A DNA stretch of 47,834 nucleotides, taken from Rhodocyclaceae bacterium (lineage in GTDB: Bacteria; Pseudomonadota; Gammaproteobacteria; Burkholderiales; Rhodocyclaceae). Positions 3,020 through 30,825 of the stretch are shown here, in pieces (positions within the stretch are counted from its first letter, which is position 1; each line of letters opens with the position of its first letter). The translations under genes were made by a program, and so were the position numbers. A model generated the notes under the pieces. It did no database searches and was not told where the DNA came from. It was given only the letters and a program-made list of their open reading frames with translations. The stretch lies in NCBI GenBank assembly GCA_020445805.1, contig JAGRFX010000008.1, forward strand, positions 1 to 47,834. The letters run 5' to 3'.

Positions 3020-5692
3020 CTAGAGAATCCGCTTCGCCCGGCCCAGCGCCACCGCCTGGGTCCGGCTGTGGGCGCCGAGCTTGCCGTTGATGCTGCGCAG
3101 GTGGGTCTTCACGGTGGCCTCGGAGACGAACAGGGTCTCGGCCATGGCCCGGTTCGAGAGGCCCTCGGCCACCAGCCGCAGCACCTGCAGCTCCCGCTCG
3201 GTGAGCGCGTCCGGGTCCTCGCTGCGGTTCGGCAGCGGGGGCAGCGGACCGGTGGCCGGCCGCGGGCCGGGGCCCAGCCGTTCGAAGAGGGGCTGGAGCA
3301 GGGCGCGATCGTCCTGCACCAGGCCGGCCAGACCCAGGGCCTGGATTTCCTCCCAGGTGGCGGCGAACTGCTGCTGGGCCTGGGCATGCTGGCCCAGATC
3401 GAGCCAGGCCCGGGCCTCGAGGACCTGCAGCAGCAGGCGACGACGATGGCGGCGGGTACGCGCCACGGCCGAGCGCTGCCCGGCCAGGATCTCGGCCGCG
3501 TCGGCGGGCTGGTGCAGGCGCAGCGCCAGCCGCGCCCGGTGCAGTTCCAGGTCCTCGGTCTCGTTGCCGTGGTAGATACGGTGCCCGAAGCCGGCCCAGT
3601 GGGCCTGCCGCCGCGCCTGGTCGAGCAGGCGCGAGGCCTGCTCCAGGTCGCCGATGGCCATCGCCAGCCAGGCCCGCTCGATGCGCGAGGTGGCGACGAT
3701 GCGGGGCGCCTCCCGCGCGATGCCCAGGTACTCCATGTCGTTGAGGCGCCGCTGGGCGGCCTCCACGTCCTGCCGGCCCAGGGACAGGCGGGCCAGGATG
3801 CGGTTGGCGACGATGATGTGGTCGGGCAGGCCGGTCTGCTCGATGATCGGCAGATAGTCGTGGAGCAGCTCCTCGGCGCCGCTCGGGTCCTCGTTGAGGT
3901 ACAGCAGCTCCGCCAGGTGCACGGCGGCCACCGCGCTGGCGCTGGAGTAGCGGGTGCCGCCTGTGGCGCGCTGGAAGGCGTTGGCGTAGATGGCCTGGGC
4001 GCCGGCCACCCGCCCCTGGGCGAACTCCATCGAGCCCTCGAGGCACTGGGAATAGGTCCAGCCATAGGTGGAGCCGGCCCGCAGGAACAGGCGCTTGGCC
4101 GTGGCCAGCAGCTCGGCGGCCTCGTCGAAGCGCGACTCGGTGCCGAGGCAGAAGGCCGCGATGTTGCACAGGGCGCCGTGGGCGAAGTCGCCCTTGCCCG
4201 ACAGCCGAGGCAGGTTGTGCATGGCGGCGTGCTGGCACTCGTCGATGCGGTCCGAGAAGATCTGGATCGCCGGCCCGAGGGTCAGCACCTCATCCTTTTC
4301 CCGGGCGGTCAGCTGCCGCTCGCCGGCATGGCGGAACTCGTCGAGCACCGAGCGGGCCTCCTGGTAGCGGTGCAGGAAGGTCAGCGCCCAGGTGTAGGAG
4401 AGGCGCAGGTGCGGGAGGTCGTCGAGGGCGTCCGGCGGCAGGGTCTCGACCCAGCGGGCCAGGGTGTCCACGCGCCCCGCGTAGAGCAGGGTCTCGGCGT
4501 GGGCATCGAGCAGCTCGGCCGCCATCCGCATGTCGCCGGCCGCCAGGGTGTGTTCGACCGCCGGCACCACCCGGTTCTGCGCCAGGTAGGCGCGGGCGGC
4601 CCGGCGATGGAGTTCGGCGGAACGGCCCGGCTGGCGACGCTCCAGCTGGGCCCGCAGGAACTCGGCGAAGAGGTTGTGGAAGCGCCAGGTGCTGCGTTCG
4701 GCATCGAGGGGGATCAGGAACAGGTTGGCGCGCTCGATGGCCTCCAGCCGCCCGGCGCAGTCCGGCTGCTCGGTGACGGCCTCGCAGAGCGCGACGGTCA
4801 CGGTGTCGAGTACGCACACCTCGAGCAGGAAGTCCCGCAGTTCCGGCGCCAGGCGCGAGAGCACGTCTTCGGCCAGGTAGTCGGCGATGCCGGCCGTGCT
4901 GCCCGACACCCCGGCGATCAGCTCGCCCGGGTTGCGTGCGCCCGACAGGGACAGGGTGGCCAGCTGCAGGGCCGTGGCCCAGCCCTCGGTGCACTGGTGC
5001 AGGGCCTGGATGTCGCGTTCGGGCACCGGCAGGTCACGCCGGGTGTTGAGGTAGGTGGTCGTCTCCGCCAGGCTGAAGCGCAGCTGGTCCACGCCCAGCT
5101 CGACCAGCTGCTCGCGCACCCGCAGGCGCCCCAGCCCCAGGGGAGGCGTGCTGCGGCTGCCCACCACCAGGCGGCAGCCAGGCGGCTGGTGGTCGATGAG
5201 CTGACGCACGATGGCGTGGATGGCTTCGTTGGTGACGCACTCGTAGTCGTCGAGGAACAGGGCGAAGGGCTGGCCGCAGCCGGACAGCCGCTCCAGCAGG
5301 TCGAGCACCACGCCCGAAGGCACGATCTGCGAGTCGAACAGGGAGGCGGGCAGGGGTGGGACATCGCTGGCGCGCCCGATCTCGCCCAGGGCGGCGGCCA
5401 GATAGGTGAGGAAGCGGGAGAGGTCGTTGTCCTGGGCGTCGAGGGTCAGCCAGGCGGTGGCCCGCCCGGCGCGCTCGAGCTGCGCGACCCACTGCAGCAT
5501 CACGCTGGTCTTGCCGAAGCCCGCCGGTGCATTGCACAGCACCAGCCGGGTGCCCTCGGGCACGCCGTCGGCGAGGCTGGGGGCGGCCCGGTCGATGGCA
5601 TGGGCCACGCGGCTGGGTGGTGTCAGCTTGGCTCGGGTCAGGCGGATGCCTTCGGGGGTGCCGATGGCACCGCCGGTGTCGGGTGATCCCAC
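3020..5692 (-). CDS. MalT-type LuxR-family (LAL) transcriptional regulator
   Basis: An 890-residue ATP-dependent regulator. The N terminus has a STAND/AAA-like NTPase: Walker A NAPAGFGKTS at residues 54-63 and Walker B FALFLDDY at 143-150. The middle is a long helical, TPR-like sensor region with many ARxxL-type repeats. The last ~63 residues are a LuxR helix-turn-helix (LTERELQVLRLVAEGLSNRAM, then VSEATVKTHL). The start is a GTG at 5692 with AGGAGGAG about 10 bases upstream. In MalT-like proteins ATP plus an inducer drives oligomerisation and activation. It is divergent from the carboxylase operon starting at 5978, so it is the obvious candidate activator of that operon (inference). Confidence 0.9.
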   Translation of the reverse strand: MGSPDTGGAIGTPEGIRLTRAKLTPPSRVAHAIDRAAPSLADGVPEGTRLVLCNAPAGFGKTSVMLQWVAQLERAGRATAWLTLDAQDNDLSRFLTYLAAALGEIGRASDVPPLPASLFDSQIVPSGVVLDLLERLSGCGQPFALFLDDYECVTNEAIHAIVRQLIDHQPPGCRLVVGSRSTPPLGLGRLRVREQLVELGVDQLRFSLAETTTYLNTRRDLPVPERDIQALHQCTEGWATALQLATLSLSGARNPGELIAGVSGSTAGIADYLAEDVLSRLAPELRDFLLEVCVLDTVTVALCEAVTEQPDCAGRLEAIERANLFLIPLDAERSTWRFHNLFAEFLRAQLERRQPGRSAELHRRAARAYLAQNRVVPAVEHTLAAGDMRMAAELLDAHAETLLYAGRVDTLARWVETLPPDALDDLPHLRLSYTWALTFLHRYQEARSVLDEFRHAGERQLTAREKDEVLTLGPAIQIFSDRIDECQHAAMHNLPRLSGKGDFAHGALCNIAAFCLGTESRFDEAAELLATAKRLFLRAGSTYGWTYSQCLEGSMEFAQGRVAGAQAIYANAFQRATGGTRYSSASAVAAVHLAELLYLNEDPSGAEELLHDYLPIIEQTGLPDHIIVANRILARLSLGRQDVEAAQRRLNDMEYLGIAREAPRIVATSRIERAWLAMAIGDLEQASRLLDQARRQAHWAGFGHRIYHGNETEDLELHRARLALRLHQPADAAEILAGQRSAVARTRRHRRRLLLQVLEARAWLDLGQHAQAQQQFAATWEEIQALGLAGLVQDDRALLQPLFERLGPGPRPATGPLPPLPNRSEDPDALTERELQVLRLVAEGLSNRAMAETLFVSEATVKTHLRSINGKLGAHSRTQAVALGRAKRIL

Positions 5693-5977: not shown

Positions 5978-7900
5978 GTGGGCAAACTGATCAACATCGA
6001 CAACGGCGGGACCCTGACCGACATCGTGGTCGTGGACGGGGAGTCGGTCGTCCGCACCAAGACCCTGACCACGCCCTACGACCTCTCGAAGTGCTTCTTC
6101 GAGGGGCTGCGCAAGGCCAGTCGGCAGATCTACGGGCAGGAGGACGTGATCGGCCTGCTGCAGGAGACCGACTACATCCGCTATTCGACGACCCAGGGCA
6201 CCAATGCCCTGGTGGAGCGCAAGGGCCCGCGGATCGGGCTGATCGCCGGGGCAGGCCTGGCGGGTGTCCTGCAGACGGGCGCCGAGGCCCGCGAGATGTT
6301 CTCCGCGCTGGTCGGCGACCGGGTGGCGGAGCTGGATGCCACCGAATCGGGCGACCTGGCGGGGCGTCTCGTGGCCGCGGTGAACGCCCTGACCTCCGCC
6401 GGTGCCAACCGCATCGTGGTCGGCCTGGGCGGCGCCTCGGCGGCGGCGGACGAGGAGCGCCTGCGACGCATCGTGCTGGCCAAGTTTCCGCCCCACCTGC
6501 TGGGCGCCGTGCCGGTCCTCTTCTCGCACCAGATCTCGGGCGACCCCGAGGACCCGCGGCGGATCTGGTCGGCGCTGCTGAATGCCTTCCTGCATCCGGC
6601 GATGGAGACCTTCCTCTACCACGCCGAGCACAAGCTGCGCGATGCCCGCTTCCGCTCGCCGCTGCTGATCTTCCGCAATGACGGCGACTCGGCGCGGGTG
6701 GCCAAGACCATTGCCCTCAAGACCTACAGCTCCGGGCCCCGCGGGGGCATGGAGGGCGCGCGCGCATTGGCCGATCACTATGGGGTGTCGCACCTGGTGT
6801 CGGTGGACGTGGGCGGCACCACCACCGACATCGGCGTGACCCTGGGCGGCCGCATCGAGAGCGAGCGGCGCGGCAACGTGGAGGGGGTGCGGGTGTCGTT
6901 TCCGCTGGTGGACATCCACAGCGTCGGGGTCGGCGGCGGATCGGTGATCCGCGCGGCGGGCGGCGAGATCCGCGTCGGACCGGAGAGCGTCGGGGCCCAG
7001 CCGGGGCCGGCCTGCTTCGGGCTGGGCGGCAAGCACGCCACGATCACCGATGTCTTCCTGCTGATGGGGGTGCTGGACCCGGAAGCCTTCTTCGGGGGCG
7101 ACCTGGTCCTGGACCTGGAGCGGGCCAAGGCGGCGGTGCTCGACAACGTCGCCCGCCCGCTCGACCTCAGCCTCGGGCGGGCCCTGGCGGCCATGGAGGC
7201 AGCCTGGGTCGAGCGCATCGCAGCCGGCATCCGCGAGCACTGCGAGATCGGGCCGGACACGGTGCTGGCCGCCTTCGGCGGCGGCGGGCCCCTGGACATC
7301 TGCGTGGTGGCCGAGGCCCTGGGCGTCGGCCGCGTGCTGGTGCCGCGCCTGGCGGCGGTGTTTTCGGCCTATGGCCTGTCCTTCTCGGACATCGCCCATC
7401 ACTACGAATCGCCACTCCCGGAGGCCAACCAGGCGGCCCTCGAGGCGGCGGTGGCCGGGCTCACCGAACAGGCCCGTCGGGACATGTTCGCCGAAGGTTT
7501 CGCGCTGGAGGATTGCACGCTGCAGGTGGGCCTGGTGCTCAGCCGGGAGGGTCGCGAGACGGAGACCCCGCTGCCCGAGGGTCGCCTGCCGGAGCCGCTC
7601 CAGGGCGCAGCGGGCTGCAGCGTGACCCTCAGCGCCACCCGGCCGATCCGCCATGCCCGCTTCGGCGTGGCCCGCACGGTCACCACGTCGGCCCCGATCA
7701 CGGCCGGAACGCGCATGCTGCGGGATGCGGCAGGCGAGAGCCTGCCGGTCCCCCTGGTGCGCCTGGCCGACAACCCGCCGGGCGCCACCGGCCTCGGACC
7801 GGTGGTGCTCGAGGAGGACTTCTTCACCTGCCGTGTCCCGGCCGGGTGGCGATTCGCCTTCACGGCCGGCGGCGATATCGAACTGACCCGGGAGCCCTGA
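5978..7900 (+). CDS. Hydantoinase/oxoprolinase A-family carboxylase subunit (ApcA-like)
   Basis: A 640-residue HyuA-type protein. I placed the start at GTG 5978 because the conserved family N terminus (GKLINIDNGGTLTD) follows at once and a GCGAGG motif precedes it; the extra upstream residues look unstructured. Two phosphate-binding signatures of the actin/HSP70-like ATPase fold are seen: DNGGTLTD at residues 8-15 and DVGGTTTDIGV near 277. Other family blocks are YSTTQGTNALVERKGPRIGL, TYSSGPRGGMEGA, GPESVGAQPGPACFG and FGGGGPLDI. In acetophenone and acetone carboxylases such subunits use ATP to activate substrate and bicarbonate without biotin. Its size and first position match ApcA of Aromatoleum. 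The next gene starts one base after its stop. Confidence 0.85.
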   Translation: MGKLINIDNGGTLTDIVVVDGESVVRTKTLTTPYDLSKCFFEGLRKASRQIYGQEDVIGLLQETDYIRYSTTQGTNALVERKGPRIGLIAGAGLAGVLQTGAEAREMFSALVGDRVAELDATESGDLAGRLVAAVNALTSAGANRIVVGLGGASAAADEERLRRIVLAKFPPHLLGAVPVLFSHQISGDPEDPRRIWSALLNAFLHPAMETFLYHAEHKLRDARFRSPLLIFRNDGDSARVAKTIALKTYSSGPRGGMEGARALADHYGVSHLVSVDVGGTTTDIGVTLGGRIESERRGNVEGVRVSFPLVDIHSVGVGGGSVIRAAGGEIRVGPESVGAQPGPACFGLGGKHATITDVFLLMGVLDPEAFFGGDLVLDLERAKAAVLDNVARPLDLSLGRALAAMEAAWVERIAAGIREHCEIGPDTVLAAFGGGGPLDICVVAEALGVGRVLVPRLAAVFSAYGLSFSDIAHHYESPLPEANQAALEAAVAGLTEQARRDMFAEGFALEDCTLQVGLVLSREGRETETPLPEGRLPEPLQGAAGCSVTLSATRPIRHARFGVARTVTTSAPITAGTRMLRDAAGESLPVPLVRLADNPPGATGLGPVVLEEDFFTCRVPAGWRFAFTAGGDIELTREP

Positions 7901-7901
7901 C

Positions 7902-8903
7902 ATGAGCACCAGCGACAACCTGATCCTGCGCGCCTTCCCGCGCGGACGGATCGACGACACTACCTTCGAAACGGTCTCCGAGGCCGTGCCGGCGCCGGCG
8001 GCCGGGGAGGTCACCGTGGCCAACCGGCTGGTCTCCATCGACCCGACCATGCGGGTGTGGCTGGACGACGAGCGCACCTACATGGAACGGCTCACGCCGG
8101 GCCAAGTCATGCGCGCCATCGCCATCGGCGAGGTGGAGGCCTCGTGCGCCCCCGAGCTGCCGGTCGGCACCCGGGTGCTGGGCCTGACCGGCTGCCGCAC
8201 CCGGGCGACGGTGGCGGCGAGCAGCCTGCAGGCGCTGCCCGACATCGGGCCGCTGCCCCTCGAGGCCCACTTCGGCCTGCTCGGCCACATCGGCATGACC
8301 GCCTGGTGCGGCCTCACCGAGATCGGTCAGCTCAAGGCCGGGGAGACCCTGGTAGTCTCGGCCGCGGCCGGGGCGGTCGGTTCGCTGGCGGTGCAGGTCG
8401 GCAAGCTGCTGGGCTGCCGGGTCATCGGCATCGCCGGTGGCCGCGACAACGTCCGCTACCTGCGCGACACCCTGGGCATCGACGACGCCATCGACTACCG
8501 CTCGGAGGATGTCTCGGCGCGGCTCGGCGCGCTCTGCCCGAGTGGCATCGACGTCTATTTCGACAACGTGGGCGGTGCCATCCTCGAGGCGGCCCTCGAG
8601 CACATGGCCCTCTTCGGCCGCATCGTCGCCTGCGGGATGATCAGCGCCTACAACCGGGAAGCGGTCGCGGCCCCGCGCAACCTGCTGAACATCGTGACCC
8701 GGCGGCTGCGGATGGAGGGCTTCGTGATCCTCGATCCGCGCCACGACGGCGCGGCCGCCTACCGCGCCCTGCTCGAGTGGGCCGCGGCGGGCCGCATCCA
8801 GTATCGGGTCCATGCCTTCGACGGGCTCGAGCACATTCCCGAAGCCATCAACACCCTGTTCGACGGCAGTCACCACGGCAAGGTGGTGGTGCGCGTCGGC
8901 TGA
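7902..8903 (+). CDS. NADP-dependent MDR oxidoreductase, enone-reductase (CurA/PTGR) type
   Basis: A 333-residue zinc-free medium-chain reductase. The family's N-terminal pattern (NRLVSIDPTMRVWL) is present and the nucleotide-binding loop AAAGAVGSLAVQVGKLLG lies near residues 149-166, followed by VIGIAGGRDNVRYL. FDNVGGAILEAAL and GRIVACGMISAYN are typical of the prostaglandin reductase / CurA / YncB branch, which reduces the C=C bond of alpha,beta-unsaturated ketones or aldehydes with NADPH. No catalytic or structural zinc cysteines are present. The gene is embedded one base after the ApcA-like gene and 19 bases before the small zinc-ribbon subunit, so it is co-translated with the carboxylase. 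This suggests that an enone, or its saturated ketone, is an intermediate (inference). Confidence 0.88.
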   Translation: MSTSDNLILRAFPRGRIDDTTFETVSEAVPAPAAGEVTVANRLVSIDPTMRVWLDDERTYMERLTPGQVMRAIAIGEVEASCAPELPVGTRVLGLTGCRTRATVAASSLQALPDIGPLPLEAHFGLLGHIGMTAWCGLTEIGQLKAGETLVVSAAAGAVGSLAVQVGKLLGCRVIGIAGGRDNVRYLRDTLGIDDAIDYRSEDVSARLGALCPSGIDVYFDNVGGAILEAALEHMALFGRIVACGMISAYNREAVAAPRNLLNIVTRRLRMEGFVILDPRHDGAAAYRALLEWAAAGRIQYRVHAFDGLEHIPEAINTLFDGSHHGKVVVRVG

Positions 8904-8922
8904 CCCCTGCGCGGAGATCGCG

Positions 8923-9336
8923 ATGAAAGTCTTCATGACCGAATACCTGGCCATCGACCTGGAGCGCGAGCTCTGGCAGTGCCGCCGCTGCGACCACGAG
9001 ATCGGGCCGGCGCGCGGCAACTACAAGGAAGGCCTGCTGGTGTATGACCGGGATCCGCGCGAGATCCATCGCCCCCTGCTCGACCCGGCCAAGTACCAGC
9101 TGACCTTTTCGCCCCATCCGCGCTGGTGCCGGATCCTCGAGTTCTACTGCCCCGGCTGCGGCACCCTGGTCGAAACCGAATACACCGTGCCGGGCCACCC
9201 GCCGCTGTTCGACATGGAGTTCGACATCGACGCCCTGAAGGCCCAGTGGGCCGGGCGGGCGCCGATGCACGAGCCCGCCCCGGCCCCGGCCGACGAGGCG
9301 CCGCTGAAGCGCCACTGCCACGGCCATTCCCACTGA
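8923..9336 (+). CDS. Small zinc-ribbon carboxylase subunit (ApcB/AcxC-like)
   Basis: A 137-residue protein related to the small subunits of acetone and acetophenone carboxylases. Two cysteine pairs, C20-x2-C23 (CRRC) and C76-x2-C79 (CPGC), form a likely zinc ribbon. The segments ELWQCRRCDHEIG, YKEGLLVYDRDP and LEFYCPGCGTLVETE fit that family. The ATG at 8923 has GGAG seven bases upstream. The C terminus is unusual: a Pro/Ala-rich linker ends in HCHGHSH, a possible extra metal-binding tail. It lies between the MDR reductase and the second HyuA-like subunit, as ApcB lies between ApcA and ApcC in Aromatoleum. Confidence 0.75.
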   Translation: MKVFMTEYLAIDLERELWQCRRCDHEIGPARGNYKEGLLVYDRDPREIHRPLLDPAKYQLTFSPHPRWCRILEFYCPGCGTLVETEYTVPGHPPLFDMEFDIDALKAQWAGRAPMHEPAPAPADEAPLKRHCHGHSH

Positions 9337-9355
9337 CCGACCGGAGCCGAACCGC

Positions 9356-11503
9356 ATGAAACGGGTTGCCGTAGATATCGGCGGGACCTTCACCGACTGC
9401 TTCGTCGTGTGGGGCGACCGCAGCGTGCAGCGCAAGGCGCTGACCACGCACCACAACCTGGCCCTGGGCTTCAACGAGGCCCTCGACTATGCCTGCCAGG
9501 ACCTCTGCGTGGAGCGCGAGGCGCTGCTCTCCGAGGTGGACTCGGTGCGCTATGCGACCACCCTGGGCACCAACGCGCTGATCGAGCGCAAGGGCCCCAA
9601 GGTGGGCCTGCTGGTCACGGCCGGCTTCAAGAGCACGGTGCCGATCGCCCGCGGCCGCGGCTACGGCGAGGGCCTGGACCCGGTGGCCCAGATGGACATC
9701 CCCAACGCCACGCGGCCCGACCCGCTGGTGCCGATCCCGATGATCCGCCAGGTGCGGGAACGCATCGACTACAAGGGCGCGGTGGTGATGGGCCTCGACG
9801 AGGACGACCTGCGCCACCAGCTGCGGGCGCTGGTGGACGCCGGCGCCGAGGCGCTGGTGGTCATGCTGACCAACAGCGTGGTCAATCCGGACCACGAGCT
9901 GCGGGTGCGCGAGGTCTTCCTGGAGGACTACCCGGCCCACATGCTGGGCGCCATCCCGATGGTGCTCTCCCACCAGGTGGTGGGGCGCAAGGGCGAGTAC
10001 GTGCGCGGCATGTCGGCGATCATCGACGCCTTCCTGCACAAGGTCATGTACCACGGCCTCGGCAGCCTGGAGCTGAATCTGCGCAACGCAGGCTATCGGC
10101 GCCCGATGCTGGTGGTGCACAACTCCGGCGGCATGGCTCAGCTCAATTCCACCGACGCGCTGCAGACCGTGCATTCGGGCCCGGTGTCGGGCATCGCCGC
10201 CTCGGAGCACCTGGCGGCCCAGGGGCTGCTCGGCAACGTGGTGGCCACCGACATGGGCGGCACCAGCTTCGACATCGGCATCGTGGTCGAGGGCGGCGTG
10301 AAGCACTACGACTTCAACCCGGTCATCGAGCGCTGGATGGTCAGCGTACCGATGGTGCACCTGGTGACCCTGGGCGCCGGCGGCGGCTCGATCGCCAGCT
10401 TCGACCGCATGTACGAGACCGTGCAGGTGGGCCCCGAGAGCGCCGGCTCCGACCCCGGCCCGGCCTGCTACGACCGGGGCGGACTTAACCCGACCGTCAC
10501 CGACGCCGACCTGATGCTCGGCTACCTGGACCCGGACAACTACGCCGACGGCCACATCCGCCTGAATGGACGACGGGCGACGATGGCCTTCGAGGATGGC
10601 CTGTGCGACGCGCTGGACGTGTCGCCGGTGGAAGCGGCGCGGCTCGTCAAGCAGACCGTGGACGCCAACATGGCCAACGGCATCGCCGCCGAGCTGCGGG
10701 CCCGCGGCTACGACCCGCGCGACTTCACCATGCTGGCCTATGGCGGCAACGGCCCCCTGCATGCCTGCGGCGTGGCGCGCCACCTGGACATCGACGCGAT
10801 CCTGGCGCCGCCGTTCTCGTCGGTGTTCTCGGCCTGCGGGGCCGGGAACATGCACCAGATGCACATCCACGAGATGTCCACTTACCTGGTGCTGTTCGAT
10901 TCGGTGGCCAAGACCGTGTTCTCGGATTTCACGCGCTTCAACGAGATCGTCGCCACCCTCGAGGCCCGCGGCCGCGAAGACCTGCTGCGCCAGGGCATGC
11001 CCGAGACGGCCATCGCCTACCAACTCGAGCTCGACATGCGCTACGGCAACCAGCGGGTGGAGACGGCGGTGTCCACCGAGCGCTCGAGGCTCGAGTCGGT
11101 GTCCGACGTGCTGCGCCTGATGGAGCAGTTCCACAGCAGCTACGGCAAGCGCTTCGGCGAGGGCAGCCAGGCGCCCGAGGCCGGGGTGCGGATCAACACC
11201 ATCCGGGTGCGGGCCTCGGTGTCGCTGGATACCGTCGACTTCAGCGACATCCTGCCCGGCGACGCGCGCCATCCGCCGCCCGAGCCGGTGGGCGAGCGGC
11301 CCTGCCACTTCGTCGGGGTCGAGGGGGCGCTGCCCACGCCCATCTACGACGAGGCCGCCCTGCGGTCGGGCACCACGATCGAGGGGCCCGCGGTGGTCAC
11401 CACCCGCTTCACCACCTACCTGGTGGAGCCGGGCTGGCAGTACCGGGCGGCGGGGCAGGGCGCGGTGTGGTTCATGCGCGGCGAACGGGCTGCGCGCGGA
11501 TAG
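9356..11503 (+). CDS. Hydantoinase/oxoprolinase A-family carboxylase subunit (ApcC-like)
   Basis: A 715-residue second HyuA-type subunit, longer than the first and with its own ATPase signatures: DIGGTFTDC at residues 7-15 and DMGGTSFDIGIVVEGG near 298. Further family blocks are YATTLGTNALIERKGPKVGL, LSHQVVGRKGEYVRG, HSGPVSGIAASEH, GPESAGSDPGPACYDRGG and YGGNGPLHACG. A C-terminal domain of roughly 180 residues (from about 530) ends in TIEGPAVVTTRFTTYLVEPGW, the usual HyuA C-terminal beta module. Two different HyuA-like subunits in one operon are the hallmark of the acetophenone-carboxylase type rather than acetone carboxylase, which has one. GGAG precedes the ATG. Confidence 0.85.
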   Translation: MKRVAVDIGGTFTDCFVVWGDRSVQRKALTTHHNLALGFNEALDYACQDLCVEREALLSEVDSVRYATTLGTNALIERKGPKVGLLVTAGFKSTVPIARGRGYGEGLDPVAQMDIPNATRPDPLVPIPMIRQVRERIDYKGAVVMGLDEDDLRHQLRALVDAGAEALVVMLTNSVVNPDHELRVREVFLEDYPAHMLGAIPMVLSHQVVGRKGEYVRGMSAIIDAFLHKVMYHGLGSLELNLRNAGYRRPMLVVHNSGGMAQLNSTDALQTVHSGPVSGIAASEHLAAQGLLGNVVATDMGGTSFDIGIVVEGGVKHYDFNPVIERWMVSVPMVHLVTLGAGGGSIASFDRMYETVQVGPESAGSDPGPACYDRGGLNPTVTDADLMLGYLDPDNYADGHIRLNGRRATMAFEDGLCDALDVSPVEAARLVKQTVDANMANGIAAELRARGYDPRDFTMLAYGGNGPLHACGVARHLDIDAILAPPFSSVFSACGAGNMHQMHIHEMSTYLVLFDSVAKTVFSDFTRFNEIVATLEARGREDLLRQGMPETAIAYQLELDMRYGNQRVETAVSTERSRLESVSDVLRLMEQFHSSYGKRFGEGSQAPEAGVRINTIRVRASVSLDTVDFSDILPGDARHPPPEPVGERPCHFVGVEGALPTPIYDEAALRSGTTIEGPAVVTTRFTTYLVEPGWQYRAAGQGAVWFMRGERAARG

Positions 11504-11527
11504 GCAACGAGGAACCAGGGGACATTC

Positions 11528-13804
11528 ATGACTCAACAGACGATCGACATCGCGGCCGAATCCCTGAGCGAGGATGAGCGCGCGCTGGTGGACGACTTCC
11601 TGCGCGACAACACGCTGTTCCTCGCACCCGACCGGGAGATCATGCGCAACCACGCCCACGGGCCACGCAGCCGCGACGAGGAGCGGGTCCTGTCGGGCAA
11701 CCCCGACCCCCACGCCCTCAACCTGGTGCGCGGGCGGCTCTATGCGGCGCTCGACGAGACCTACGACATGGTCGAGCAGATGGGCACCGCGCCGGGCGCC
11801 AAGTGGGGCGACCTGGTCACCGGCATCTACACCGCCCGCGGCGACCTCTCGGCGATCAGCCCCAAGGGCGTGGTGGTGTTCTCCGGCATCTGCCACTACC
11901 CGATCAAGTTCATCGCCAAGTACTGGGCCAAGGACCCCACCGTGGGCCTGTCGGAGGGCGACGGCTTCATCCACAACGACTCGCGCTACGGCAACATCCA
12001 CAACACCGACCAGAGCATGATCATGCCTGTGTTCCACGAGGGCGAGCTGATCTGCTGGGTGTCGTCCACGATCCACGAGGGCGAGAACGGTGCCTGCGAG
12101 CCCGGCGGCATGCCGGCGGCGGCCGAGAGCAAGTGGGACGAGGGGCTGAAGATGAGCCCCTTCCGGATCGTCGAGGATTTCCAGATCCGCCGCGACCTGC
12201 TGACCTACCTGCAGAACTCGGTGCGCGACCCCAAGCTCCAGTACGAGGACATCAAGGTCAAGCTGCATGCCTGCGTGCGCCTGATCGAGCGCATCCGCGC
12301 GGTGATCGCCGAGTACGGCAAGGACGCCTTCGTCGGCTGCCTGCGCAAGAACATCGAGGACGTGGACGCCGAGGTGCGCCGTCGCATCCGCGAGATGCCC
12401 GACGGCACGGTGCGGGTGCAGGCCTTCATCGACGGCACCCTGCGCGAGAACTGCCTGATGAAGTGGAACTTCTCGGTCACCGTCAAGGGCGAGAAGATGA
12501 CCCTCGACTGCCGCGGCTCCTGCCCCGAGTTCACCAACCGCTCCATCAACACCACGCTGGCCTCCCTGAAGACCTGCCTGGCCACCAGCTACCTGATCTA
12601 CATCTGGCCGGACCTGCCCCACAACATGGCGGTGTTCTCGCCGATCGAGGTGCTGACCGACGAGAACTCGCTGCTGGACGCCTCCTTCGACGCGCCCAAC
12701 GCCATGAGCCTGACCCCGCTCTTCAAGTCCTTCAGCATGCCCATCTACGCGATGGCCAAGTTCCTCTACAGCGCGCCCAAGCGCTACACCTCGGTCTATG
12801 CCTCGCACTTCAACCAGCCCTTCACCTTCGTCTATGGCGGCATCACCCAGCACTCGGAGGTGACCGGCAACTTCTGCGCCGACATCAACGGCAACGGGGG
12901 CGGTGCCCGCTTCGACCGGGACGGCGAGCACGCGGTGTCGCCGATCTTCGGCTACATGTGCGACACCGGCGAGCAGGAATTCAACGAGGAGGAACTGCCG
13001 GTGCTGCGGCTGGTGTCCCAGCACCTCTCCAAGGACCGGATGGGCTTCGGCAAGTACCGGGGCGGCCTCGGCTACGAGCAGATGATCACGGCCCGCGACA
13101 GCGACGTGTGGGGCTTCATGACCGGCGGCACCGGCTCCTTCCACCCCAGCGCCTACGGGCTCTTCGGCGGCTATGGCTCGCCGGCCTATCCGCTCGCCAA
13201 GGTCAAGGACGTGAATGTCTTCGATGTTCTTAGGAACAATCCGCGCCAGTTCCGCTTCGACATGGTCGAGCTGATGAACGAGCAGGCCCTGGAGGGCGCC
13301 AGCTATGGCACCTACCACATGGGGATGACCTTCGAGCCGGCCGCCCAGGGCGAGGTCTACATGATCTGCCAGGGCTCCGGCGGCGGCTACGGCGACGTGC
13401 TCGAGCGCGACCCGCAGCTGGTCATGAAGGACGTGGAGGAGGACCTGCTCTCACCGGTGCTGGCGCGGGAGCTCTACTTCGTGGTCTTCGACGAGGCCAC
13501 GCTGATTGTCGATGCCGCGGCCACGGCGGCGGCCCGCGACGCCGAACGGGCCGCCCGACTGGCCCGCGGCAAGCCCTACGCGGACTTCGTTGCGGCGTGG
13601 TGCACGGGCGAGCCCCCGGCCGATCTGCCGTACTACGGCAGCTGGGACGATCCGGCCGTGATCTGGGCGGGGCAGGGCGAGGGACGGCGGCAGCTCGATG
13701 CCGACCAGCTCGCGGGCATCCTGATGCCCAACCCCAAGGACCTGCGGATCGCCGCGCTCGAGGCCGAAGTGGCGGCCCTCAGACGCGCCCGGGCGGGCGA
13801 CTGA
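11528..13804 (+). CDS. Hydantoinase B-family carboxylase subunit (ApcD-like)
   Basis: A 758-residue HyuB-type protein, the expected partner of the HyuA subunits. Conserved blocks include GDGFIHNDSRYGNIHNTDQ around residues 144-162, where acetone carboxylases place metal ligands, ENGACEPGGMPAAAESKWDEG just after, and a C-terminal glycine-rich GSGGGYGDVLERDPQLVMKDVEEDLLS. The last 30 residues form a short helix resembling a coiled coil (LRIAALEAEVAALRRAR). No biotin-attachment motif (AMKM) is seen in this or any other protein of the operon, consistent with a biotin-independent enzyme. The gene is 24 bases after the ApcC-like gene and one base before the next one. Confidence 0.85.
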   Translation: MTQQTIDIAAESLSEDERALVDDFLRDNTLFLAPDREIMRNHAHGPRSRDEERVLSGNPDPHALNLVRGRLYAALDETYDMVEQMGTAPGAKWGDLVTGIYTARGDLSAISPKGVVVFSGICHYPIKFIAKYWAKDPTVGLSEGDGFIHNDSRYGNIHNTDQSMIMPVFHEGELICWVSSTIHEGENGACEPGGMPAAAESKWDEGLKMSPFRIVEDFQIRRDLLTYLQNSVRDPKLQYEDIKVKLHACVRLIERIRAVIAEYGKDAFVGCLRKNIEDVDAEVRRRIREMPDGTVRVQAFIDGTLRENCLMKWNFSVTVKGEKMTLDCRGSCPEFTNRSINTTLASLKTCLATSYLIYIWPDLPHNMAVFSPIEVLTDENSLLDASFDAPNAMSLTPLFKSFSMPIYAMAKFLYSAPKRYTSVYASHFNQPFTFVYGGITQHSEVTGNFCADINGNGGGARFDRDGEHAVSPIFGYMCDTGEQEFNEEELPVLRLVSQHLSKDRMGFGKYRGGLGYEQMITARDSDVWGFMTGGTGSFHPSAYGLFGGYGSPAYPLAKVKDVNVFDVLRNNPRQFRFDMVELMNEQALEGASYGTYHMGMTFEPAAQGEVYMICQGSGGGYGDVLERDPQLVMKDVEEDLLSPVLARELYFVVFDEATLIVDAAATAAARDAERAARLARGKPYADFVAAWCTGEPPADLPYYGSWDDPAVIWAGQGEGRRQLDADQLAGILMPNPKDLRIAALEAEVAALRRARAGD

Positions 13805-13805
13805 G

Positions 13806-14600
13806 ATGGGCGCACTGATCGACCGGGTCGACGGCGCGCGCGAGACCGGCGGACGCGGGGTCTGGGTGGACGGGCTCGGCTACGCCCGAACCCGCCTGCT
13901 CGGCGCTGCGGCCATCCCCTGGCAGGACACCGCCGCCTGCGTGGCCTTCTTCGGCCAGGTGGACCGGCTGCTGCGCAGTGACGTGCAGTGGCTGCCGGTG
14001 GGCGATTTCTACCACCAGCGGGTCGCCGACGACGGGGACCTGCGCGCGGCGATGGCCGCCCGCAGCCGCAGTGGCTTTGCCCTGCGCACGATGCTCGCCG
14101 ACGAGGCTGCCCGCTCGGCCCTGTCGGAGCTGGTCGCTGCGCTGTCGCGGCAGTCACGGGCCCCGGTGCTGCTGGTGTTGCCGGCCATGGCCGCCTGGTC
14201 GGTCGAGGCCCATGCCCTGGCCCACGGTGAAGCGATCGATGCGCAAGCCGATGAGGGCGAACGCGCTGCCATGTACGTGGCGGATGCCCTGCGCGCGCTG
14301 TCCCAGGCTGGGGTTGGGGGACTGCTGCTGAGCCCCGAGGGGCGCGCCGACCCCCATGGTCCCGTGCTGAACCAGGCGCGCCACTACCGCTGGGACTGCG
14401 TCCTCGCCGACCCGCCCGAGGGCTGGGACGCACACGCCTACGACCTGTCCGTCGGACCGGACCGGGGGCAGGGACGTCGTCTCGAAAACCTCGATACACC
14501 GCCGCCGGAAGCCGCCTTCTACCTTCAGCACCTGCCGCCGACCGCAGAGCCCGAGCCGGTGCTCGCGCGGCTCGCGAGCCTGCGCAGTGGCGGCCGCTAG
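13806..14600 (+). CDS. Unknown protein, possible ApcE-like fifth carboxylase component
   Basis: A 264-residue protein (about 28 kDa) beginning one base after the stop of the HyuB-like gene. I recognise no named domain. The middle has an alternating hydrophobic pattern (APVLLVLPAMAAWSVEA, then GVGGLLLSPEG) that suggests an alpha/beta barrel or Rossmann-like fold. No signal peptide or membrane segment is seen. In Aromatoleum the acetophenone carboxylase operon ends with a fifth component (epsilon, about 34 kDa) needed for activity, and this gene occupies that position; homology is not demonstrated here. It is followed closely by the Ycf48-like gene. Confidence 0.5.
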   Translation: MGALIDRVDGARETGGRGVWVDGLGYARTRLLGAAAIPWQDTAACVAFFGQVDRLLRSDVQWLPVGDFYHQRVADDGDLRAAMAARSRSGFALRTMLADEAARSALSELVAALSRQSRAPVLLVLPAMAAWSVEAHALAHGEAIDAQADEGERAAMYVADALRALSQAGVGGLLLSPEGRADPHGPVLNQARHYRWDCVLADPPEGWDAHAYDLSVGPDRGQGRRLENLDTPPPEAAFYLQHLPPTAEPEPVLARLASLRSGGR

Positions 14601-14619
14601 CGTGGAGGGCGTCGGGACC

Positions 14620-15594
14620 ATGACCCAGGACACCCCCACCGGCGGCCAACTGGCCGCGTGGCTGGCCCGCCTCGCGCCGCTCGCCATCATCGGCGGGCTG
14701 CTCTATGCCGCCTTCTTCGTCCAGGTGGTGCCGGACCTGCCCGAGGTGGTCCAGCCCGCCGTCGGTGCACGGGACCGCTTCTACGGCATCACCTCGACGG
14801 ACGGACAGCTGTGGGCGGTGGGGGCGCTGGGCAAGGTCGTGACCAGCCGCGATGGCCGCCAGTGGTCGCGCCAGACAACGCCGATCACGGCCCACCTGCA
14901 AAGCATTGCGGCCTGGGACGCGCGGCGGCTGGTGGCGGTGGGCAACGGCGGCAGCGTGATCGTCACCGAAGACGGAGGCGGACACTGGGCGAGCGTGGAC
15001 ACCCCGGCCGCCGACGGCCGCAAGTTCCTGCGGGTTCGGACCTTCGCCGGCGGCGTGGCCTGGGCCACGGGCGAGTTCGGCATGGTCCTGCGCAGCGAGG
15101 ATTTCGGCGCCAGCTGGCGCGAGGCCATGCCGGCCGAGGACATCGGCTGGAACGACGTGGCCGTGCGGGGTGAACAGGTGCTGGTGGTCGGCGAGTTCGG
15201 GCGCATCGCCCGATCGGTGGACGGCGGTCGCAGCTGGGGCGAGGTGGAGGCCGGCGTGGAATCGAGCCTCACCTCGGTCTGGATGGGCGAAGGCCTGGCG
15301 CTGGCCGTCGGCCTCGACGGCCACATCCTGCGCTCGACCGACCAGGGGCAAGGCTGGCAGCGCGTCCGATCCGGCACCCGCGAGCACCTGTTTTCGGTGG
15401 CGCCGGCGCCGGAGGGCTTCGTCGCGGTCGGCAACCGCGGGGTCGTGCTGACGGGTGACCGCAGCGGCGGGTTGTGGCATGCGGGCCGGGCCGGCGCGAG
15501 CGACTTTGCCTGGCGCACCGCGCTGACCGAATTCGATGACCGGTGGATGGCTGCGGGCCAGCGGCTCGGGCCCATCGAGCTGCCCGGAACCTGA
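14620..15594 (+). CDS. Ycf48-like beta-propeller protein with N-terminal anchor
   Basis: A 324-residue protein with one membrane segment (about residues 12-33, LAPLAIIGGLLYAAFFVQVV) followed by at least five BNR/Ycf48-type repeats. Recurrent SxDGGxxW-like strands are seen: TSRDGRQWSR, TEDGGGHWASV, RSEDFGASWRE, RSVDGGRSWGE, RSTDQGQGWQR. The ATG at 14620 is chosen over the upstream GTG because GGAGG lies about 10 bases before it. Ycf48-like proteins assist assembly of membrane complexes in phototrophs. In heterotrophic bacteria such genes often precede an RND/MMPL transporter in catabolic clusters, as here (12-bp gap), so it may be a periplasmic partner of that transporter (inference). Confidence 0.8.
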   Translation: MTQDTPTGGQLAAWLARLAPLAIIGGLLYAAFFVQVVPDLPEVVQPAVGARDRFYGITSTDGQLWAVGALGKVVTSRDGRQWSRQTTPITAHLQSIAAWDARRLVAVGNGGSVIVTEDGGGHWASVDTPAADGRKFLRVRTFAGGVAWATGEFGMVLRSEDFGASWREAMPAEDIGWNDVAVRGEQVLVVGEFGRIARSVDGGRSWGEVEAGVESSLTSVWMGEGLALAVGLDGHILRSTDQGQGWQRVRSGTREHLFSVAPAPEGFVAVGNRGVVLTGDRSGGLWHAGRAGASDFAWRTALTEFDDRWMAAGQRLGPIELPGT

Positions 15595-15606
15595 GCGGAG
15601 ACCGAC

Positions 15607-18500
<2,894 letters not shown>

Positions 18501-18502
18501 CC

Positions 18503-18979
18503 ATGCGCCTGCGTGTGGACCTGGCGGGTCAGTGGCTCGACCTCTACGACGATACCGGCGTGCTTCAGCGTCGCTACGCCGTGTCCACCGCCCTGAACGG
18601 GCCGGGCGAGCAGCAGGATTCGGGCTGCACGCCCCGCGGCAGCCATGTGGTCCGGGCCCGGATCGGGGCCGGCTGCGATCCCTACACGGTGTTCCGCGGT
18701 CGGCGCCCCACGGGTGAGACCTGGCGCCCGGAACAGGCCGCCGCCGAGCCCGGACGGGACTGGATCCTGGGGCGCATCCTGTGGCTGTCGGGCTGCGAGC
18801 CGGGCCGCAACCGGCTGGGATCGGTGGACTCCATGCGACGCTATATCTACATCCATGGCACCGGGGACGACCAGCCGATGGGCGTGCCGCGCTCCCATGG
18901 CTGCATTCGCATGCGGGTCGCCGACGTGGTCGAACTGTTCGAACTGGTCCCGGCCGGGACGCCTGTGGAGCTCAGCTGA
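18503..18979 (+). CDS. L,D-transpeptidase catalytic-domain (YkuD) protein without signal peptide
   Basis: A 158-residue protein that is almost only a YkuD/ErfK domain. The catalytic motif is intact: H118 (YIYIHGTGDD) and S131-H132-G133-C134-I-R at the end. YkuD enzymes form 3-3 cross-links or attach lipoprotein to peptidoglycan in the periplasm, yet no signal peptide or membrane segment is visible and the ATG follows the tadA stop by two bases. Either export uses another route or the domain works in the cytoplasm on soluble muropeptides. The next gene begins on the base after its stop codon, so translation of tadA, this gene and the GNAT gene is probably coupled. Confidence 0.83.
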   Translation: MRLRVDLAGQWLDLYDDTGVLQRRYAVSTALNGPGEQQDSGCTPRGSHVVRARIGAGCDPYTVFRGRRPTGETWRPEQAAAEPGRDWILGRILWLSGCEPGRNRLGSVDSMRRYIYIHGTGDDQPMGVPRSHGCIRMRVADVVELFELVPAGTPVELS

Positions 18980-19432
18980 ATGTCGCTCGACGAGGTGCGC
19001 TGCGAACTGGGCAGCTGGGCCGAGCTGGGCACCGAGGCGCATACCATCCGCACGGTGGTGTTCGTCGGCGAGCAGGGTGTCGCGGCGGAACTGGAAGTGG
19101 ATGGCCGTGACGGACCCAGCCTGCACGTGCTGGTCCGCGACCCGAGCGGCCGGGCCATTGCGACCGGACGCCTGCTGCCCGACGGCCACGTGGGTCGCAT
19201 GGCGGTGCTGGCCGAGGCCCGCGGGCAGGGCGTCGGCGCCATGGCGCTCAAGGCCCTGGTGGATGCGGCGCGCCGGCGGGGCGACCCGGTGCTTCGGCTC
19301 AACGCCCAGAAGGACGCCGTCCGGTTCTATGAGCGTCACGGCTTTCGTCCGGCCGGCGAACCCTTCATGGAGGCCGGCATTCGCCACCATCCCATGTCAC
19401 TGGATCTGGAAGGTCTCCAGGACCTGGCCTGA
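18980..19432 (+). CDS. GNAT-family N-acetyltransferase (ElaA/YjcF-like)
   Basis: A 150-residue acetyltransferase. The acetyl-CoA loop is MAVLAEARGQGVGAMALKALVDAARRRG (about residues 74-101), followed by LNAQKDAVRFYERHGFRPAGEPFMEAGIRHHPMSLDL, a pattern of the YjcF/ElaA branch. The substrate is unknown. Its ATG directly abuts the stop of the transpeptidase-fold gene. Its 3' end overlaps the convergent NRDE gene by 36 bases. Confidence 0.88.
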   Translation: MSLDEVRCELGSWAELGTEAHTIRTVVFVGEQGVAAELEVDGRDGPSLHVLVRDPSGRAIATGRLLPDGHVGRMAVLAEARGQGVGAMALKALVDAARRRGDPVLRLNAQKDAVRFYERHGFRPAGEPFMEAGIRHHPMSLDLEGLQDLA

Positions 19433-20161
19433 GGGCCGGCCGACGGCGTCCCAGCTGCGCTCCTCGAAGCGCACCCGTCCGTCCGCGCCGAACAGCACGA
19501 CCGTCGAACAGCGGGTGCCATAGCCCGGCGCGCGGATGAAGGCGCTGGACAGCATGCGTTCCCACTGGAGGCCGACACCGGTGACGGGCAGTTGCGCGTC
19601 GCCGGCCGGCCTGTCGGAGCGCAGCATCGTAAAGAGCGCCTCCACGTCGGGCTCGCCGGCCAGGGCTGTGGCCATCGCGGCCCGCGCGCGCTGCTGCTTG
19701 GGCCAGGGTGCATCCAGGCTGGCGTTCGAGAGCGCGTAGGCGCCGGGCTCGATGACTTGGCGCCGCGCTTCGCGGCTCTCGAGCATGCCCAGGGTGTCGC
19801 CGTCGAAGGCCAGCAGATTGAAGCCGTTGAAGTGGCGGGCGTTGGCCTGCAATTCTTCAAAGGAGGCCGTGGTGGATTTGCCGGCGCCGAGAAAGTGGGG
19901 CACCAGGGCGCCCCGCGAGGGGGCATTGGACCTGACGGCGGCCGGGTCCCGGTGGTTGGTCAGCGCGGCGAAGCGGCCCCCGGGGGTCACGCCCATCCAG
20001 GTGCCGCCGGCCTGCTCGTCCTGGCCCGAGAGCAGGGCCTGACCGCCGTGCTCCCACCAGCGTGCGGGACGCGCCGGGCGAACGAAGAACTCGTCGCGGT
20101 TGGCCGCGACCACCAGCGGAAAATCGGGGTGAATTCGCCAGGCGAAGGCGATCAGGCACAT
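19397..20161 (-). CDS. NRDE (TANGO2-like) family protein
   Basis: A 254-residue cytosolic protein with the family N terminus MCLIAFAWRIHP and the naming motif AANRDEF at residues 19-25, then RPARWW, GTWMGVTPGGRFAALTNHR and, near the C terminus, YGTRCSTVVLFGADGRVRFEERSW. Cys2 after removal of Met resembles N-terminal nucleophile enzymes, and relatives have been linked to haem handling and lipid metabolism; the bacterial activity is not settled. Its 3' end overlaps the GNAT gene tail to tail. It begins 10 bases upstream of the stop of the DUF4936 gene, so it lies at the end of the ygfZ-DUF4936 transcript. Confidence 0.88.
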   Translation of the reverse strand: MCLIAFAWRIHPDFPLVVAANRDEFFVRPARPARWWEHGGQALLSGQDEQAGGTWMGVTPGGRFAALTNHRDPAAVRSNAPSRGALVPHFLGAGKSTTASFEELQANARHFNGFNLLAFDGDTLGMLESREARRQVIEPGAYALSNASLDAPWPKQQRARAAMATALAGEPDVEALFTMLRSDRPAGDAQLPVTGVGLQWERMLSSAFIRAPGYGTRCSTVVLFGADGRVRFEERSWDAVGRPSGQVLETFQIQ

Positions 20162-20439
20162 ACGAAATACTCCACATGGCGCCGGGAGCCGGACGCCAGA
20201 TGATCGTCGAAGGCCATTGCGCGCAGATGTCGCACCAGACCGTCAAGCACGGCCTGGCGGTCGGCAACGCCGCGGTAGACCTCCATGCGCGTTCCGTCGT
20301 CCGGCTTCTGCATCAGGGTGGCGGTGCATCCGCACTCGTCGGCGACGGCGCGCTGCATGGCTTGCAGTCGAGGCCGAAGGTGTTCGAATGCACCGTCCGC
20401 GAGGCGGTAATAGATGTACAGCTCGCCGCTGGACGTCAC
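20152..20439 (-). CDS. DUF4936 family protein
   Basis: A 95-residue protein of a small, mainly betaproteobacterial family of unknown function. It begins with ELYIYYRLADGAFEHLRPRLQAMQ and ends with FDDHLASGSRRHVEYFVCA. The pattern suggests a dimeric alpha/beta (ferredoxin-like) fold. The start is a GTG at 20439-20437 that overlaps the ygfZ stop codon as GTGA, a strong sign of translational coupling. It also overlaps the start of the NRDE gene by 10 bases. The constant link with ygfZ suggests a role near iron-sulfur repair or folate chemistry, but this is only context. Confidence 0.82.
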   Translation of the reverse strand: MTSSGELYIYYRLADGAFEHLRPRLQAMQRAVADECGCTATLMQKPDDGTRMEVYRGVADRQAVLDGLVRHLRAMAFDDHLASGSRRHVEYFVCA

Positions 20440-21464: not shown

Positions 21465-21606
21465 TTCTTGTCGATTTCCGGATTGGGGTGGGGGTTCTTG
21501 CCTTGCAGTATTATAGGGCGCCTCCCCGGGGCCCCGGCACACGCAGGGCCTGTCCGCGCGGGGCTTTTTTTGACCAGGCGCGCTGCGCGCCCATGCCTCG
21601 CCCGAC
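21465..21606. promoter_or_regulatory. Divergent ygfZ/mltG promoter region with a T-tailed hairpin
   Basis: On the minus strand a perfect TATAAT lies at 21515-21510, about 46 bases before the ygfZ start, with no good -35 at the right distance. On the plus strand GCCCCG (21531-21536) can pair with CGGGGC (21559-21564), followed directly by seven T (21565-21571). This looks like an intrinsic terminator or attenuator with a large 22-base loop, placed 36 bases before mltG. Confidence 0.35.
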
Positions 21607-24270
<2,664 letters not shown>

Positions 24271-30782: not shown

Positions 30783-30825
30783 GGCGGGCTCCGCAATTCG
30801 AGGGATCAAAAGGATTCTCATGGAT

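Follow-up and report, generated by a model that had tools for sequence, protein, structure and literature searches.

Acetophenone carboxylase (Apc) of Aromatoleum aromaticum, encoded by apcABCDE, was by 2017 the only characterised enzyme of its branch, and since a passage of PMC5214803 already calls this branch highly diverse, the existence of Apc-like operons is not in itself new. Excerpts of PMC4729919 present acetophenone as the substrate for which Apc is highly specific; the few others that it carboxylates include propiophenone and fluoroacetophenones. Here, we analysed a stretch of 47,834 nucleotides from a Rhodocyclaceae bacterium (contig JAGRFX010000008.1; the whole stretch is called the window below), which carries an operon with counterparts of the five Apc subunits (alpha', gamma, alpha, beta and epsilon, for ApcA to ApcE). 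Sequence comparisons and structure prediction suggest that this operon is likely to encode a ketone carboxylase built on the Apc plan and distinct from acetophenone carboxylase. The analysis adds a defined, widespread branch that is marked by recurring pocket residues and partner genes of its own and for which testable substrates and named hosts can be given; no characterised member of this window-type branch was found in the open-access literature, which is not proof that none exists.

Class of the core subunits

Two HyuA-type subunits, one HyuB-type subunit and one zinc-ribbon small subunit had been claimed for this locus from its letters alone (hereafter the sequence-only reading), and all of them were found with Pfam and NCBIfam models. 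Indeed, the closest Protein Data Bank (PDB) match of all four core subunits was a chain of acetophenone carboxylase 5L9W (5L9W_C for gamma, E 6.6e-31; 5L9W_B for alpha, E 1.3e-156; 5L9W_A for beta, E 1e-75), and gamma scored 127.3 bits with the NCBIfam ApcB model (cut-off 250). An 81-row tree of the HyuA-type subunits was built by a quick method with Shimodaira-Hasegawa-like approximate likelihood ratio (SH-aLRT) supports only and midpoint drawing, using 33 of the 79 alpha and 34 of the 74 alpha' rows in hand; all five of its reference rows are partial stretches, three of them on long branches. In this tree, window alpha' shares its side of a support-100 branch with 5L9W alpha', window alpha groups with 5L9W alpha (support 88), and the acetone carboxylase, caprolactamase and hydantoinase references form a separate group with nine order-level HyuA rows (support 96). 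The sequence-only reading had named clustering with hydantoinases or oxoprolinases as a result that would refute its claim, and no such clustering appeared. Moreover, 5L9W and the Apc-type row L065 pair at support 100 in both alpha and alpha', and the window stands outside this pair.

Both phosphate motifs and the adenosine motif (ASKHA) occur in window alpha' and alpha, the phosphate motifs being present in 76–77 of the 77 alpha rows and in 73 of 73 alpha' rows of the window-type family. The fingerprint RERIDYKG is found in window alpha, RERIDxxG is absent from window alpha', and the R/KERiDsxG-type pattern occurs in 57/77 alpha rows and 0/73 alpha' rows. Note that these motif counts, as well as the pocket counts below, leave out the non-family alpha rows L034 and L065 and the alpha' row L065, and keep near-copies. 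Among the features that a passage of PMC5214803 uses for Apc annotation, the gene order (with one inserted gene), the ATP motifs, RERIDxxG and the gamma cysteines are all seen here. We propose alpha' as the bicarbonate kinase and alpha as the ketone kinase.

The residues expected around a metal were also retained. A passage of PMC5214803 gives Asp65, His123, Asp126 and His148 as the mercury site of Apc beta, its authors preferring the gamma cysteines for zinc; by hand counting along the alignments, D95, H158, D161 and H183 of window beta are their counterparts. The manganese ligands of acetone carboxylase, given as Glu89, His150, Asp153 and His175 in an excerpt of PMC5543143, fall in the same alignment columns, and the four window residues are invariant in 15/15 aligned beta sequences. 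Two CxxC motifs were present in 55 of the 56 gamma rows of the window-type family retained by the open reading frame (ORF) picker, and window gamma is 137 amino acids (aa) long, for 129 aa in 5L9W_C and 168 aa in acetone carboxylase gamma. Taken together, the tree, the fold of epsilon (see below) and the metal and gamma residues support the ATP-dependent, biotin-independent ketone carboxylase proposed by the sequence-only reading, the reaction being inferred.

The epsilon subunit

At the ApcE position, the sequence-only reading had noticed a protein of about 28 kDa and called it unknown; its location stood, and the protein now appears to be an ApcE by predicted fold and, weakly, by profile. 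Neither Pfam nor NCBIfam, the ApcE model of the latter included, gave a match to this 264-aa protein at E≤0.01. An AlphaFold2 model was computed from 39 family sequences (predicted local distance difference test score 89.8, predicted template modelling (TM) score 0.89), i.e., from the 39 of 59 cluster members left as scan-locus rows plus the window once near-copies, doubtful starts and loci of other origin had been dropped. Its top three PDB fold matches were chains D, A and B of 9FOU (E 6.4e-5, 9.4e-5 and 3.7e-4; probability 1.00; 15–16% identity), an entry named acetophenone carboxylase subunit epsilon, and the next PDB match came at E 0.055. Weaker fold matches were old yellow enzymes, UroD and methionine synthase, which suggest a TIM-barrel-like fold. 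In addition, hhalign of the family to three Apc-type epsilons gave 49.9% probability (E 1.6e-4) over 92 columns, with a shared N-x-A...R stretch at the end. The ApcE fold would thereby be extended to proteins that sequence search did not tie to ApcE.

Substrate pocket and probable class of the ketone

The published acetophenone pocket of Apc alpha consists of L81, F281, N282, P285, I333, Q344 and T345, and five of these seven positions differ in window alpha. Over the 77 family alphas (window included), the residues at these positions are T in 77, V/I in 45/29, H in 76, P in 77, I in 76, H in 70 and L in 75, four of the five changed residues being nearly fixed and the fifth being V or I. The Apc-type row L065 reads M, Y, N, P, I, Q and T, and equals Apc at three of the five changed positions. 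Furthermore, four genomes (G390, G418, G511 and G611) hold a window-type family member together with an ApcE-family match on other contigs, all these matches lying under the model's cut-off. The pocket differences and these same-genome matches support the earlier suggestion that the substrate is not acetophenone, and from the pocket, the tree and the coexistence with ApcE-family matches we judged acetophenone unlikely.

The ketone is probably neither acetophenone nor acetone. Our guess is that it most likely belongs to the medium-sized aliphatic or terpenoid methyl or cyclic ketones, and an apolar unsaturated ketone is suggested because of the double-bond reductase and the AmeC/AmeD-like pair of the operon (see below) and because of hydrocarbon-linked hosts, host names or source lines mentioning hydrocarbons being those of Hydrocarboniphaga, Neorhizobium petrolearium, Ciceribacter naphthalenivorans and Rhodococcus DK17. 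Phytone was also considered; its name was found in none of the papers listed by one open-access literature search.

Layout of the operon

The packed run on the forward strand contains 8 genes (5978–17949) in the order of Table 1, with no gap above 24 bases; successive gaps are 1, 22, 19, 24, 1, −14 and 12 bases, computed with the gamma start at 8926, the gamma ATG being at 8923. The operon span of 5978–14600 given by the sequence-only reading is thus too short, since the run goes on through the YCF48-like gene and the MMPL pump. Similarly, the claimed succession ApcA-B-C-D was right in its subunits and their relative order and wrong in its contiguity, a 333-aa reductase gene lying between A and B. 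The start of alpha' is uncertain (GTG at 5978, with the frame already open from a TTG at 5900). The divergent MalT-type LuxR protein, the probable regulator of the operon, scored 398.2 bits with NCBIfam MalT (under the cut-off of 537), and the pump scored 115.9 bits with the NCBIfam HAE3 subfamily (cut-off 351.9). In agreement with the sequence-only reading, no biotin-carrier domain was found among 30 window proteins scanned with Pfam, nor any CoA-ligase domain; these scans covered a subset of the ORFs, as three sets of 10 proteins with E limits of 0.01, 1e-5 and 1e-4.

Table 1. Coordinates of the operon and its divergent regulator in the window
Feature	Position	Strand	Basis or remark
MalT-type LuxR regulator	3020..5692	-	Pfam GerE and TPR_MalT; divergent from operon
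Alpha' subunit, ApcA-like	5978..7900	+	NCBIfam ApcA 338.9 bits, cut-off 1250
CurA/LTB4DH-type double-bond (enone) reductase, MDR superfamily	7902..8903	+	Pfam ADH_N_2
Gamma subunit, ApcB-like, zinc ribbon	8923..9336	+	Pfam Acetone_carb_G; two CxxC
Alpha subunit, ApcC-like	9356..11503	+	NCBIfam ApcC 562.8 bits, cut-off 1500
Beta subunit, ApcD-like	11528..13804	+	NCBIfam ApcD 307.2 bits, cut-off 1500
Epsilon subunit (ApcE by predicted fold), 264 aa	13806..14600	+	AlphaFold2 model and PDB fold matches
YCF48-like protein, AmeC-like	14587..15594	+	Pfam PSII_BNR; 14-base overlap with epsilon gene
MMPL/HAE3-type RND pump, AmeD-like	15607..17949	+	Pfam MMPL; closes packed run

Elsewhere in the window, the region left of the regulator (1–2959) carries a GSDH-type dehydrogenase, a cytochrome c with two matched stretches and a cytochrome P460 gene, and an iron-uptake-like cluster on the reverse strand (26077–30821) consists of consecutive DUF1513, imelysin (M75), di-haem oxidoreductase and second imelysin genes.

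Neighbouring genes in relatives

Neighbouring genes were counted in 85 family loci (75 of the 78 loci of the named-genome scan, three being duplicates of contigs already included, with 9 more and the window) and in 12 hydantoinase-type control loci. Note that the 85 loci are related, some being near-copies, that the controls are few and come from one order, that the plasmid loci L066–L070 stand outside the count, and that the names of neighbour clusters rest on one or few annotated representatives each. Acetoacetate-CoA ligase (33/85), a MalT-type gene (30/85), YCF48 (20/85), a sigma-54 activator (20/85), CurA reductase (19/85), an RND pump (18/85), thiolase (17/85) and CoA transferase A (6/85) were each seen in 0/12 control loci, and an SDR dehydrogenase occurred in 31/85 family loci versus 1/12 controls; since the control set is small, the commonest partners carry most weight. 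A representative operon-linked ligase scored 925.5 bits (cut-off 639). The sequence-only reading had seen no adjacent beta-ketoacyl-CoA ligase, which holds for the window and fails for the 33 family loci just mentioned. In L072 (Denitromonas, among the nearest named relatives) and L124, the genes follow the order A-B-C-D-E-SDR-ligase-reductase, and because of this order and of the neighbour counts, the usual route probably runs from an alcohol to the ketone, the beta-keto acid and the beta-ketoacyl-CoA, followed by thiolysis.

Some single loci carry other partners. Downstream in L120 (titled Haliea; 16445–22232) lie an acyl-CoA dehydrogenase, an acyl-CoA carboxylase pair and a hydratase, resembling an acyclic-terpene or leucine module; the best model of the hydratase is gamma-carboxygeranoyl-CoA hydratase (326.7 bits, cut-off 426), an isoprenoid hint from one locus. 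A tryptophan-halogenase-family gene (Pfam) adjoins the carboxylase genes in L062 (2544–4076), and its close match does so in L061 (14955–16493). In the Apc-type loci L158 and L159, ORFs next to the epsilon genes show, by eye, a CobW-like P-loop sequence.

The enone reductase and the efflux-type pair

The inserted reductase has PDB matches that include double-bond, pulegone and 2-alkenal reductases, and no second CurA-type reductase was found in the window genome at E≤1e-50. Among 6 members of the genus, the close form of beta and this reductase are both restricted to the window genome and one genus-mate, the reductase being 85–86% identical to its sister-genome copy. A similar reductase occurs in 15 loci (window included), where about 0.6 would be expected by chance from 18 matches in ~49.7 Mb of ten host genomes and 1.64 Mb of loci; we chose the ten hosts, the matches of the loci themselves are counted among the 18, and the loci cannot be taken as independent of one another. 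Further candidates for C=C reduction near relatives are a DUF5938/saccharopine-dehydrogenase-like protein in 14/85 loci, whose C=C role is a guess, and an old yellow enzyme in L141.

A YCF48-like gene and an RND pump also come after epsilon in L033. The window pair resembles AmeC and AmeD of Castellaniella defragrans, in which deletion of ameABCD reduces monoterpene tolerance, according to a passage of PMC6394551.

Coding evidence, distribution and mobility

Locus L071, from another metagenome-assembled genome (Rhodocyclaceae bacterium HKST-UBA167), has the same genes in the same order as the window. Beta is 97% identical between the two: of 757 codons, 118 differ silently and 26 by a replacement, and because these differences are mostly silent, the operon genes are real coding DNA. 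The pump (170 silent and 60 replacing in 777 codons) and the reductase (73 and 48 in 327) were compared in the same way, and epsilon evolves faster (56 silent and 80 replacing in 253 codons), its changes falling 95 times on third codon positions and 54 and 49 times on the others. Codon comparisons of alpha and alpha' were left unused, since their rows mixed cross-matches between both genes.

The named-genome scan gave 476 pattern matches; 405 beta relatives were recognised among them, and the best 80, from 78 loci, were retained. Hosts among these best 80 include Rhodocyclaceae, Zoogloeaceae, Solimonas, Sinimarinibacterium, Nevskia, Burkholderia, Xanthobacter, Azotobacter, Zavarzinia and Gordonia, with Denitromonas and Azoarcus as further named hosts; relatives carried on plasmids come from Cupriavidus, Neorhizobium, Rhodococcus and the haloarchaeon Halorientalis. 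No gamma relative was found in viral contigs in one scan. Within the window genus, the close form is present in 2/6 genomes, a 54–55% form with other neighbours in 2/6, and only distant matches in 2/6. The right-hand flank of the window operon (TANGO2, GCV_T, YceG, DnaX and TatD) is present in all four genomes without the close form, no carboxylase gene lies beside it in the regions read, and MalT-like matches adjoin TANGO2 in G667. Because this flank occurs without carboxylase genes, the operon appears to sit at a variable spot, as judged from the right-hand side that was compared. In the genus-mates G665 and G669 (L178 and L179), the 54–55% family member lies elsewhere, with CobW and sigma-54 activator matches nearby. 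The window genome also carries, near the end of contig C144 (L047), an acetone-carboxylase-like HyuB of 774 aa and a gamma-like protein of 167 aa together with a ligase-like gene, a pair that NCBIfam did not name acetone carboxylase.

Proposed function and alternative explanations

We propose that the operon is laterally mobile and serves the catabolism of a hydrophobic ketone. Should the cell receive an alpha,beta-unsaturated ketone, its C=C bond may first be saturated by the CurA-type reductase. If the scheme put forward for the homologous Apc applies, alpha would then phosphorylate the ketone to a phosphoenol, alpha' would phosphorylate bicarbonate to carboxyphosphate, and with the help of epsilon the two activated substrates would meet on the beta/gamma core and yield a beta-keto acid, 2 ADP and 2 Pi. 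A CoA ligase, encoded elsewhere in the window genome and beside the carboxylase in many relatives, could activate the beta-keto acid, and a thiolase could cleave the beta-ketoacyl-CoA, releasing acetyl-CoA and leaving a shorter acyl-CoA. The YCF48/HAE3 pair may help the cell to tolerate or export the apolar compound, and expression of the operon may be controlled by the MalT-type protein. More tentatively, the window operon could exemplify a second, large branch of ketone carboxylases with five subunits, no biotin and a use of two ATP, through which terpenoid or other hydrophobic ketones are degraded by carboxylation and not by Baeyer-Villiger oxidation; in this case the enone reductase would act first on an alpha,beta-unsaturated ketone. 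The proposed branch spans Proteobacteria, Actinomycetota and haloarchaea. If true, bacteria would use carboxylation more generally to attack inert ketones, and the enzyme could be considered for making beta-keto acids with fixation of CO2.

Several observations weigh against this proposal. Every window subunit that was scored missed its NCBIfam Apc equivalog cut-off by far, and beta, at 758 aa, is not Apc-like in length, being longer than 5L9W_A (684 aa) and closer to acetone carboxylase (776 aa); a passage of PMC5214803 treats length as only an approximate criterion for Apc annotation. The epsilon model matches 9FOU with a TM-score of 0.56 and a root-mean-square deviation (rmsd) of 7.4–7.8, and because this rmsd is large, the likeness is at fold level only; likewise, the epsilon profile did not find 9FOU among PDB sequences at E≤10, and hhalign to one Apc-type epsilon gave 1.3% probability. 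Epsilon was found in only 62/85 family loci, a count that agrees with the remark, in a passage of PMC5214803, that not every Apc-like operon has epsilon. The window operon contains no ligase, dehydrogenase or thiolase; an acetoacetate-CoA ligase of the window genome (894.5 bits, cut-off 520.9) lies at the end of contig C760, and being 44% identical to the operon-linked kind and at a contig end, it was rejected as the missing operon gene. The acetoacetate-CoA ligases of relatives suggest short beta-keto acids. Metal delivery by a CobW-type GTPase was rejected as well, since this gene shows no enrichment (13/85 family versus 1/12 control loci). The reductase is absent from most family loci and only 35–49% identical between loci outside the sister genome, i.e., it is not one conserved ortholog. 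Finally, the DUF1329 pump partner was not found in the window genome (81% complete), and DUF1302 gave one 38.7-bit match on another contig and none in the operon.

A drifted acetophenone carboxylase, or a close aryl-ketone variant, would share the plan, the ApcE fold and the best PDB matches of the four core subunits with 5L9W; we nevertheless consider it quite improbable, since the new residues at the changed pocket positions recur over the family, while L065 keeps three of the Apc ones exactly, window alpha falls outside the 5L9W-L065 pair, and four genomes combine a window-type member with a below-cut-off ApcE-family match. The PDB matches also include caprolactamase and N-methylhydantoinase, and HyuA and HyuB are the Pfam families involved, as expected for an ATP-dependent amidohydrolase (hydantoinase, oxoprolinase or lactamase) with acquired extra subunits. 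However, such enzymes have two subunits only according to a passage of PMC5214803, here accompanied by gamma, alpha' and epsilon, the hydantoinase and caprolactamase rows group apart in the tree, and the genes activating beta-keto acids that adjoin relatives occur in none of the hydantoinase-type loci; we rejected the hydantoinase/oxoprolinase reading from the tree and the five-subunit content, and an amidohydrolase of this kind seems most improbable.

An acetone or small-ketone (e.g., butanone) carboxylase for short chains, which we regard as unlikely, would be in line with the acetoacetate-CoA ligase and 3-oxoacid CoA-transferase genes of relatives, and Xanthobacter and Rhodococcus hosts are known for small-ketone use. 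Against it, the window genome has the separate acetone-carboxylase-like pair and ligase-like gene on C144 (recognised from protein length and weak similarity), and it is not obvious what role an enone reductase or a hydrophobe pump would play with acetone. Passages of PMC5214803 describe acetone carboxylases without alpha' or epsilon, and the acetone carboxylase reading itself was rejected from the tree and the subunit content (two kinases and epsilon). It is also conceivable, though rather doubtful, that A-B-C-D-E alone form one functional unit, with which the reductase and the pump travel as unrelated genes. The varying placement and low identity of the reductase among loci, its presence in only 19 of the 85 and the missing DUF1329 partner fit this explanation, but the gaps of 1 and ~20 bases put the reductase inside the operon, it is kept at high identity in the sister genome, and its recurrence in 15 loci exceeds the expected number. 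The Apc-plan carboxylase acting on a ketone other than acetophenone remains the reading that we prefer.

Comparison with known systems

Acetone carboxylase AcxABC (5SVB, 5M45) has in common with the window operon a gamma zinc ribbon and the aligned metal-site histidines and aspartate of the HyuB-type subunit. It differs by its lack of alpha' and epsilon and its other gene order, as stated in excerpts of PMC5214803, and its row falls outside the group of Apc alpha and the window-type family in the tree. N-methylhydantoinase and caprolactamase (7HK5, 6YRA) share HyuA- and HyuB-type homology, but consist of two subunit types only and belong to the separate tree group. As for the accessory genes, AmeABCD, as described in a passage of PMC6394551, likewise shows a COG4447/photosystem-assembly-type periplasmic protein followed by an HAE3-type pump of ~780 aa, together with DUF1302 and DUF1329 partners that the window operon does not have. 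CurA curcumin reductase, leukotriene B4 dehydrogenase and pulegone reductase share their domain architecture with the window reductase and are its best named matches, its NCBIfam CurA score being 296.7 bits, under the cut-off of 440.

ApcABCDE (5L9W, 9FOU) is the closest system. The window operon differs from it by its own tree branch, other pocket residues, scores far under the NCBIfam cut-offs, a longer beta, a reductase inside the operon and the lack of an adjoining ligase gene. Both systems share the subunit set and the order A-B-C-D-E, ASKHA motifs in both kinases, RERIDxxG in alpha only, the gamma cysteines, the beta metal-site residues and, as predicted from the model, the epsilon fold.

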